Shown: positions 24,332 through 26,401 of the stretch, one piece after another
Position numbering within the stretch: the stretch's first letter is position 1
Layout: the number at the start of each line of letters is the position of its first letter
DNA from: Anoxybacteroides voinovskiense
GTDB lineage: Bacteria; Bacillota; Bacilli; Bacillales; Anoxybacillaceae
NCBI RefSeq assembly: GCF_014196205.1
Contig: NZ_JACIDE010000002.1
Span: forward strand, 124,001 to 188,000
Length of the DNA: 64,000 nt
Direction: 5' to 3'
The notes under the pieces: generated by a model
Seen by the model: only the letters and a program-made list of their open reading frames with translations
The model's database searches: none
Told to the model about the DNA's origin: nothing
Made by a program: the position numbers and the translations under genes

Positions 24332-25720
24332 ATGTTACGTTCGATGTTTACGGGCATTGGCGGGATTCGCAACTTCCAATATAAATTAGATGTTATTGGT
24401 AACAATATTTCTAACGTTAACACATACGGCTATAAAAAAGCACGGGTAACGTTTAAAGACCTCGTTTCCCAACAAATTTCTGCAGCGACGTCATCGACTG
24501 GAACGCGCGGGGGAATTAATGGCAAACAAATCGGATTAGGAAGCGGGTTAGGTTCGATCGAGACGATTCACACGCAAGGTTCGACGCAAACGACGTCACG
24601 GCCACTTGACTTAGCGCTCGGCGGCGACGGATTTTTCGTTGTCGGCTCGATTAACGACGTGACGTTAATTGATATCGACGGACCAGCTGGCAAGCTCGGT
24701 ACGAACAAAGTAAATACAGGTGTGCCGATCGATCGCGCCTTCAACCTTAGCTTTACGCGAGCAGGAAACTTTTATTTAGATGAGTACGGCTATATTGTCA
24801 ACTCGGAAGGACAATATTTAATTGGTGAAGCAGCGATTAAAGATGTAGATACGGTCAAAGCAAATGCCCCGCATGTGGCAACGGCTCGACAAGATTTGAA
24901 TAGCTTTGTGAATGGTGCGAATGGCTTAGTAGACTTTATTCAAAAATGGAAAGCAGAGTTTTCCAAAAACCCAGATAACAATCCAGCGACTAAAACGGAT
25001 TTCATTAATCTCGTGAAAAGTTTCAATACACAATTGAAAGACCTTAATAAAAAAATTACTGGGAAAACAGACCCGAATGATACGACATCGCCAACTGCCG
25101 GAACATATTTCAATGATAAAGTATCTCCTAAAGCAACTATTAATCCTGTTCCGCTCCTTCCAGAAAATGATAGCAATTGGCCGGATTCGTTATCAGAAGC
25201 GGAAAAATCGATGGGACCGTACTTAGAGCAAATTAGCGGGTTTGTCGAAAGCGTTCAACAAGTACTAAATGACTACAGCGAACCGAAATTCGGAAATGTT
25301 ACAAGCTTTGAACCAGGATTGATTCAAATTCCAAAAACGGCAAAAAGTTTTGGAATTACAGCCGATGGAAAAGTCACATTTATTGATAGCAATGGGCAAT
25401 TGAAAATTGCTGGGCAAATTTTACTGGCGCAATTCCCGAACCCGAGCGGCTTAGAGAAAATGGGTGGCAATACGTTTAAAGAAACAAACAACTCAGGAAA
25501 ACTCGACCGGAATGCGAATGGGTTAACGATTAACGAATTGTCGCGTCCAGGACTAAATGGCGCAGGAGAAATTATTTCCGGGGCATTAGAAATGTCAAAC
25601 GTTGACCTTTCCGAAGAGTTTACGGAAATGATTGTTGCCCAACGTGGCTTCCAAGCAAACACGCGCATTATCACAACATCGGATGAGATTTTGCAAGAAC
25701 TTGTCAACTTAAAGAAATAA
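24332..25720 (+). CDS. flgE: Flagellar hook protein FlgE with large internal insertion
   Basis: A 462-residue hook subunit. The N-terminal rod/hook motif LDVIGNNISNVNTYGYKKARVTFKD and the C-terminal block ALEMSNVDLSEEFTEMIVAQRGFQANTRIITTSDEILQELV are typical. B. subtilis FlgE (once called FlgG) has about 264 residues. The extra length is mainly a segment of about 163 residues, near 167-330, of helical and Pro/Asn-rich character, plus a shorter one near 105-130. The insertion probably forms a surface-exposed hook domain. GGAGAGG precedes the ATG. Confidence 0.92.
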   Translation: MLRSMFTGIGGIRNFQYKLDVIGNNISNVNTYGYKKARVTFKDLVSQQISAATSSTGTRGGINGKQIGLGSGLGSIETIHTQGSTQTTSRPLDLALGGDGFFVVGSINDVTLIDIDGPAGKLGTNKVNTGVPIDRAFNLSFTRAGNFYLDEYGYIVNSEGQYLIGEAAIKDVDTVKANAPHVATARQDLNSFVNGANGLVDFIQKWKAEFSKNPDNNPATKTDFINLVKSFNTQLKDLNKKITGKTDPNDTTSPTAGTYFNDKVSPKATINPVPLLPENDSNWPDSLSEAEKSMGPYLEQISGFVESVQQVLNDYSEPKFGNVTSFEPGLIQIPKTAKSFGITADGKVTFIDSNGQLKIAGQILLAQFPNPSGLEKMGGNTFKETNNSGKLDRNANGLTINELSRPGLNGAGEIISGALEMSNVDLSEEFTEMIVAQRGFQANTRIITTSDEILQELVNLKK

Positions 25721-25731
25721 TAAGGGAGGGA

Positions 25732-25756
25732 GGGCACTAGACTCCGTCTAGTGCCC
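25732..25756 (+). repeat. 11-bp perfect hairpin between the Shine-Dalgarno and start of swrD
   Basis: GGGCACTAGAC (25732-25742) and GTCTAGTGCCC (25746-25756) flank a TCC loop. Upstream is a strong purine site AAGGGAGG (25722-25729) and downstream is the ATG at 25765. No T-run follows, so it is not a typical terminator. Looping out the 25-nt hairpin would leave about 9 nt between the binding site and the start codon. Confidence 0.88.
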
Positions 25757-25764
25757 AAATACAT

Positions 25765-25986
25765 ATGATTACATTAACGCGATTAAATGGAAAAATATTC
25801 ACGTTAAACGCGCTATACATAGAACAAGTGGAAGCCTTTCCCGATACAACGATTACGTTAACAAACGGCAAAAAAATCGTCGTCCGTGAATCTGTAAAAG
25901 ATGTGGTAGAGCTCGTTACCCATTTTTATCGCCAAATCTCGGTCATCGGGCTTCCTCGAGAGGTGGAGGGATCAAATAGTGAGTAA
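25765..25986 (+). CDS. swrD: Swarming motility protein SwrD (FlbD family)
   Basis: A 73-residue protein of the FlbD family (YlzI). The MITLTRLNGKIFTLNALYIEQVEAFPDTTI start is nearly invariant in Bacillus. SwrD is reported to increase flagellar motor power for swarming in B. subtilis, and the mechanism is still unclear. The only strong ribosome-binding site is separated from the ATG by the perfect hairpin at 25732-25756. The end overlaps fliL by 8 bp. Confidence 0.9.
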   Translation: MITLTRLNGKIFTLNALYIEQVEAFPDTTITLTNGKKIVVRESVKDVVELVTHFYRQISVIGLPREVEGSNSE

Positions 25987-26401
25987 ATTATGGAAAATCA
26001 TGCTTGTTATTTTAGTAAGTATTACTCTTATATCGGTAGTAGCATTAGTCATCGTTTTAAAATTTACCGGCAATCAAGAGAAAAAAGCACCGACAGCGGA
26101 TGAAATTGTCGCTAGTTCGGTTGATGTGCCGGAAATTACGACAAACTTAGCCGACGGCAGTTTTATTAAAATTTCATTTAAAATCCAAATGAATAGCGAG
26201 GATGGAAAAACCGAGGCAGAGAAGCGCGATTTTCAAATAAAAGATATTATTATCGAGCAGCTATCGACGATGAAACCGGTCGATTTTAATGGGGAGCAAG
26301 GAAAGACGAATCTAAAAAATCGCTTGAAAGAAAAAATTAATCAAATTATGCAAGATGGAAAAGTGGAGCAAGTGTACATTACTTCCTTCATCCTCCAATA
26401 A
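25979..26401 (+). CDS. fliL: Flagellar basal body-associated protein FliL
   Basis: A 140-residue single-pass membrane protein that surrounds and supports stator units. A transmembrane helix (about 5-27) is followed by an extracytoplasmic domain with VPEITTNLADGSFIKISFKIQM and the regular C-terminal helix of NQIMQDGKVEQVYITSFILQ. GTG start at 25979 behind GAGGTGGAGGG, inside the end of swrD. Confidence 0.93.
   Translation: MSKLWKIMLVILVSITLISVVALVIVLKFTGNQEKKAPTADEIVASSVDVPEITTNLADGSFIKISFKIQMNSEDGKTEAEKRDFQIKDIIIEQLSTMKPVDFNGEQGKTNLKNRLKEKINQIMQDGKVEQVYITSFILQ

Follow-up and report, generated by a model that had tools for sequence, protein, structure and literature searches.

A distant Shine-Dalgarno sequence and a conserved intervening hairpin point to a split ribosome-binding site for swrD across a bacterial order

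Introduction

Initiation across a folded spacer is usually cited from two genes of phage T4. In these genes an RNA hairpin between the Shine-Dalgarno sequence (SD) and the AUG shortens the spacing from 22 to 5 nt (gene 38) or from 27 to 11 nt (gene 25), destabilising the structure lowers initiation, and the split-site form of gene 25 is confined to close T-even relatives (PMC3014915). The ribosome can also accommodate the domain 2 hairpin of E. coli thrS without unfolding it; this hairpin spans A(-14) to U(-48), and an essential single-stranded domain 3 lies upstream of it (PMC3936740). In S. aureus, the aligned SD spacing exceeds that of E. coli by 2-3 nt, and the main text of that work on extended SD motifs contains neither "hairpin" nor "stem-loop" (PMC13009471).

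The locus considered here is the junction between flgE and swrD of Anoxybacteroides voinovskiense, which lies in a window of 64,000 nucleotides (the whole stretch of DNA analysed; positions 124001-188000 of contig C2, in a genome of 3.23 Mb). As in T4 genes 38 and 25, a hairpin between the SD and the start would shorten the working spacing, in the window from 35 to 10 nt; the T4 cases, however, are phage genes, whereas swrD is a bacterial chromosomal gene whose arrangement is known by comparison, with unrelated hairpins of 12-71 nt in 44 of 45 families. In thrS the hairpin precedes the SD, and the leader is bound by threonyl-tRNA synthetase, whereas in swrD the hairpin stands between the SD and the start. 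Ordinary Firmicutes sites resemble swrD in having a strong SD, and at about 10 nt the folded distance is near normal (the median for ORFs of the window is 8), but they show neither a linear gap of 25-81 nt nor a hairpin. SwrD acts on motor power, and was reportedly the subject of a 2018 paper from the Kearns group. A literature search, with most subscription papers outside its scope, found no description of a split-site element at swrD.

Results

On the forward strand of the window, flgE, which encodes the flagellar hook protein (24332-25720; Pfam Flg_bbr_C PF06429, LlgE_F_G_D1 PF22692 and Flg_bb_rod PF00460), ends in a TAA stop codon at 25718-25720 and is followed by swrD (flbD/ylzI; 25765-25986; 73 aa; Pfam FlbD PF06289, E 1.6e-27) and then by fliL (25979-26401, GTG start; Pfam FliL PF03748), which has a near SD of -13.57 kcal/mol at an aligned spacing of 15. 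The strongest anti-SD pairing in the flgE-swrD junction is at AAGGGAGG (25722-25729; -17.3 kcal/mol by stacking), extended by the purine run GA to 25731. This SD lies 35 nt from the ATG at 25765, in agreement with the initial annotation, which had described swrD as lacking a normally spaced SD and had put its sole strong one about 34 nt away. Sequence and fold also bear out the hairpin that the annotation had placed in this gap: the arms GGGCACTAGAC (25732-25742) and GTCTAGTGCCC (25746-25756) form a perfect stem of 11 bp around the 3-nt loop TCC (25743-25745), 25 nt in all, and an 8-nt A/T-rich linker, AAATACAT (25757-25764), connects it to the start codon. With the hairpin subtracted, 2 + 8 = 10 nt remain between SD and ATG, close to the figure of about 9 nt first given. 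The 101-nt junction folded with a minimum free energy (MFE) of -24.2 kcal/mol (z -3.69), none of 200 dinucleotide shuffles was equally stable, and every pair of the stem had a probability of at least 0.98 in its context from -150 to +100.

No SD pairing of at least 4 bp was present at 3-16 nt from any candidate start of swrD, the sole such case among the 69 ORFs of the window; 64 of these had an SD of -9 kcal/mol or better in that range, at a median aligned spacing of 8. A wrongly assigned start codon was considered and rejected: M1 and I2 of SwrD are invariant in 19 family sequences and TTG starts occupy the same position in other genera, so the ATG at 25765 is taken to be correct. We also rejected the idea that the layout is common in this genome. 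Among 433 genes tested across the window and a further 400 kb (464 kb in all), a near SD was found in 405 and neither arrangement in 25, and the three that passed a loose split-site filter had irregular structures that look like wrong starts; this screen was limited to genes of at least 90 aa, a length that swrD itself falls below. A repeated or mobile hairpin was rejected as well, as the 101-nt junction stretch is single copy in the genome and had no match among phage records. A search of positions 25300-26200 for known Rfam cis-regulatory RNAs returned two matches, both far under the cut-off.

SwrD is present in all seven genomes of the genus and in all 41 of the family, the closest named relative in the collections being an Anoxybacillus MAG whose SwrD is 95% identical. 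In the 38 distinct junctions of the family, the strongest SD lies 24-60 nt from the start with a hairpin between them. Two junctions (L009 and L012, from G034 and G035) have 78-nt gaps, a much longer hairpin and a TTG start, and their folded distance is still 10 nt. The folded distance was 7-14 nt in 32 of the 38; the six outside this range, all Geobacillus-type (g3), had 1-4 nt in the MFE structure. The stem sequences vary across the family (GGGCACTAG, GGGTACTAG, GGGCGTTAG and GGGGGC among them).

The annotation had proposed to look for compensating changes in the stem among relatives, and these are present. Our family alignment (A2) held 23 of the 38 junctions; the g2 group with short GC stems (L011, L014-L018, L026), the long hairpins of L009 and L012, L031 (whose hairpin is the same as that of L029) and further Geobacillus junctions (L035-L039) were omitted, either because they gave no gap-free alignment to the 11-bp stem or because they repeated it. 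Standard pairs filled 93.7% of the stem cells, compared with 34-46% when the partner strand was slid by 1-3 columns. Both sides were altered in 26 cells, a value that none of 500 shuffles matched, and the covariation score was 0.384 compared with 0.188 for shuffles, again reached by none of 500. The both-side changes fell in six of the 11 pairs, a count that is unexceptional taken alone (77 of 500 shuffles reach it). As judged from this alignment, the stem is kept within the family by compensatory changes in both arms, while the loop is unconserved.

We then surveyed the order. Of 397 genomes sampled from the GTDB order, 368 matched a SwrD profile built from 19 sequences, and one junction was taken for each genus, 127 genera with a match and three further genera of the family giving 130; one junction (L346, genus g119), whose start was unassignable, was dropped, so that 129 remained. 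Anti-SD pairing was scored without regard to structure, and an SD was called far if the strongest site lay more than 18 nt from the start. By this rule the SD was far in 122 of 129 genera, at a median of 36 nt (IQR 33-39, range 25-81), and in 106 of the 122 any near SD was weaker than -6 kcal/mol. Folding the spacer by itself left an unpaired distance with a median of 10 nt (IQR 9-12), and this distance was 7-14 nt in 108 of the 122. Among dinucleotide-shuffled spacers, the best of 100 sets placed 70 of 122 in that range; the standard deviation of the folded distance was 2.85 across the 122 genera, compared with a minimum of 5.17 over the 100 shuffled sets. The spacers also folded better than expected, with a median z of -3.68, and in 104 of 122 at most five of 100 shuffles were equally stable. 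The proposal that a folded spacer brings the distant SD to a working distance, in the manner of T4 gene 38, thereby gains strong comparative support.

A far-SD representative was found in 44 of 45 families. Under stricter rules, which asked for a near SD weaker than -8 kcal/mol and a spacer fold of -6 kcal/mol or better, 111 of 129 genera qualified and 18 did not, and 43 of 45 families were still represented; family f31 had no qualifying member by either rule, and f27 failed the stricter set solely through a near SD of -9.19 kcal/mol. A few rows were mixed, with a fair near SD in L177 (-9.96) and L171 (-9.19) and, in L179, a far SD alongside a strong near one (-13.49). The folded distance fell outside 7-14 nt in 14 of the 122 genera. 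The strongest-SD rule misregisters some G-rich junctions, among them L158, whose SD overlaps the stem; such rows were kept as misses, and some of the order-wide misses look like register errors of this kind. The picture was similar in 80 named loci, which include Anoxybacillus, Geobacillus, Priestia, Fictibacillus, Rossellomorea, Lysinibacillus and others: the strongest SD was more than 18 nt away in 79, of which 66 also had a folded distance of 7-14 nt, and Priestia endophytica (L109) had a near SD and no hairpin.

Linker and span statistics were computed with L346 retained, which gave 123 far junctions, 121 of them with a single external helix. In these 121 the hairpin spans 12-71 nt, and the stem begins on average 1.7 nt past the SD core and ends on average 8.7 nt before the start, in a linker containing 9% G. 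The distances on the SD side and the start side showed a weak inverse relation (Spearman -0.18, p 0.05). The SD core itself is predicted to be mostly paired in context, with a median unpaired probability of 0.26 (0.34 when measured from the flgE stop); the SD of the window is less occluded, at a predicted 0.68-0.80 for positions 25725-25729. This predicted pairing counts against the simplest view of SD binding, although the anti-SD pairing itself is strong.

The fold is conserved across the order, and to judge by the alignments its sequence is unrelated between families. Of 111 left-arm 9-mers, 104 were distinct, mean identity between families was 0.32, and both the sequence and the length of the loop differed between families. 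In 88 of 122 spacers the sense strand gave the better fold, and in 32 the complement did (Wilcoxon p 6e-10), which argues that the selected entity is the RNA and not a DNA dyad; a dyad recognised by a protein is disfavoured by this strand bias and by the varied loops. The same variety bears on the suggestion, made in the annotation, that melting or binding of the hairpin could tune SwrD, for which we found nothing in support. A switch of this sort, with a protein, a small RNA or temperature setting the level of SwrD through the state of the hairpin (open or locked), has some appeal, as the stability of the stem would directly alter the effective spacing and the product acts on motor power. Specific recognition is nevertheless hard to reconcile with stems and loops that are unconserved between families, the SD and the start codon both lie outside the stem, and the isolated hairpin of the window is predicted to retain -8.8 kcal/mol even at 70 C. 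We regard regulated switching as improbable, and specific binding to the hairpin looks unlikely from its sequence; the conserved loop or stem sequence by which a protein- or ligand-binding leader (a CsrA site, a thrS-type operator or a riboswitch) would be known was absent among the 111 left arms compared.

A hairpin this stable and GC-rich, placed where a gene ends, could also be an intrinsic terminator or attenuator between flgE and swrD, and a T run does follow some of the hairpins in outgroups from the phylum, such as L415. Within the order, however, not one of 122 genera had at least six T in the 9 nt after the stem, and the linker of the window reads AAATACAT. We therefore rejected an intrinsic terminator, which we consider very improbable as an account of this hairpin.

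The seven genera without a far SD provide a natural control on the folded-spacer arrangement. In these (L191, L263, L305, L323, L329, L344 and L349) the SD lies 5-13 nt from the start, and the hairpin between SD and start is absent in all seven; in L323 and L329 a hairpin is found upstream of the near SD instead. Relatives that lack the stem and keep a normally spaced site, which the annotation had named as evidence against its reading, make up seven of the 129 genera, and the distant SD and the spacer hairpin tend to come and go together.

Outside the order the arrangement is less regular. Representatives of the class (51 of 52; L237 is missing, having no SD of at least four pairs) had their strongest SD within 14 nt in 26 cases and beyond 18 nt in 25, but just 14 of these 25 had no near SD better than -6 kcal/mol. 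After L244 was set aside (its flgE and swrD genes overlap, and its SD is weak), 13 cases remained: seven of eight genera in family f49, both in f55, all three in f65 and the single genus in f77. Among the other members of the class, of which 29 junctions were folded (median z -2.9), the usual arrangement is a hairpin after flgE followed by an SD at normal spacing, and of 30 further loci from the phylum, 29 had a near SD, many with an upstream hairpin by eye. GC-rich hairpins between flgE and a normal swrD SD were noted in L193, L195, L208, L226, L228, L398, L415 and L416, with a T run after some, as in L415. Outside the order, this suggests a terminator-like or processing hairpin as the earlier condition. 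The likeliest origin, we infer, is that an intercistronic hairpin predates the split site and was later enclosed by the ribosome-binding site.

Such hairpins upstream of normal SDs, usual among the 29 folded junctions of the class and seen by eye in several of the 30 loci of the phylum, are what would be expected if the element mainly served the flgE mRNA, blocking 3'-5' exonucleases or marking a processing site so that the hook message outlasts the rest, its place in the swrD site being tolerated. This reading leaves the constant folded distance and the missing near SD unexplained. It is also at odds with seven representatives of the order that carry two hairpins (L162, L268, L270, L277, L284, L287 and L312): the first separates flgE from the SD (z at or below -2.9), and the SD is still far with a second hairpin in the spacer, albeit a weak one in L312 (dG -4.9). 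Finally, in two clean cases, the flagellated L386 and L390, in which fliL or fliM comes immediately after flgE, no hairpin was seen after flgE. The two-hairpin junctions and these two loci suggest that the spacer hairpin belongs to swrD and not to flgE, and we hold a primary role in the flgE message to be possible but doubtful. Since hairpins also stand upstream of normal SDs outside the order, the hairpin may serve something besides spacing. The other loci lacking swrD were disrupted or had other sequence after flgE; in L387 (G159) and L388 (G064), swrD was not found, the stretch after flgE looked disrupted and non-flagellar-looking sequence preceded fliL, and these are possibly decaying motility operons.

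The position of the SD relative to flgE raises the prospect of translational coupling, in which an SD overlapping or adjoining the stop codon would retain a ribosome that has finished flgE, and this ribosome would start again at the swrD start codon, brought within its reach by the hairpin. A median of 8 nt separates the flgE stop from the beginning of the SD core; the interval is no more than 12 nt in 82 of 123 junctions, and in 12 of 111 the core touches or overlaps the stop. In genome G390, which we take to belong, with its genus g51, to the Bacillus subtilis group, its subtilisin being 97% identical to subtilisin E, the TAA stop is directly followed by GGAGG (TAAGGAGG), and the junction runs TAA, GGAGGGA, a 10-bp stem (drawn by eye) closed by GTAA, GCTGTTTT and ATG. 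Species related to G390 have altered stems. Coupling cannot be general, as the SD is further off in a third of genera, some of which have another hairpin in between, and it would supplement a folded spacer rather than replace it; we treat it as a tentative addition with less than an even chance. A stronger version, which we think unlikely, is that SwrD output is a read-out of flgE translation, in which ribosomes that finish flgE would load on the neighbouring SD and either upset the fold or let it form, the whole being an order-wide RNA design free of sequence constraint. If true, such a read-out would link hook synthesis to motor power, and the sequence-free design would be a conserved cellular counterpart of a device otherwise described chiefly in phage T4.

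Discussion

We consider it highly probable, on comparative grounds, that swrD is translated from a split ribosome-binding site with a folded spacer. In such a site the anti-SD of the 30S subunit would pair with the purine-rich SD just past the flgE stop, the hairpin downstream of it would stay folded and looped out, and a start codon 25-81 nt away in sequence would come to lie about 10 nt away along the path of the mRNA; unfolding of the hairpin would then be expected nearly to silence swrD. A far SD with no competing near SD was found both in the window (35 nt) and in the order (122 of 129), a stable helix in the spacer restores the distance in both (10 nt and a median of 10), and selection on that helix is indicated by covariation cells and a score above those of 500 shuffles and by the shuffled spacers. 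The comparison of junctions supports the arrangement itself, its near-universal presence among genera, the constant folded distance, the retention of a stem irrespective of its sequence, the bias towards the RNA strand and the co-occurrence of hairpin and far SD. By analogy with T4 genes 38 and 25, the ribosome would accommodate the hairpin in its folded form, which fits what is stated for the domain 2 hairpin of thrS (PMC3936740). Ribosomes without a full S1 protein have low helix-unwinding power, and may favour initiation of this type.

Such a folded-spacer site would be a constant trait of one cellular gene in almost every genus of an order, the Bacillus subtilis group included. As G390 of that group shows the arrangement, it should be testable in a model organism, and B. 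subtilis 168 presumably carries it as well. More than 100 natural variants of one design, linear at 25-81 nt and folded at about 10, could be used to probe which helices the 30S subunit accepts between SD and start. Models of ribosome-binding sites and gene starts that rely on linear spacing are expected to score swrD as untranslated or to misplace its start. The distribution also raises the question of why a motor-power gene keeps a split site though some lineages have swapped in an ordinary one.

Two further features of the swrD region were noted. Start codons other than ATG are common in swrD, with TTG in 24 and GTG in six of the 129 assignable starts among genera of the order, and these starts may also limit initiation. 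In L296 (G343), a gene that looks FliM-like by eye begins within about 20 nt of swrD, leaving no room for fliL.
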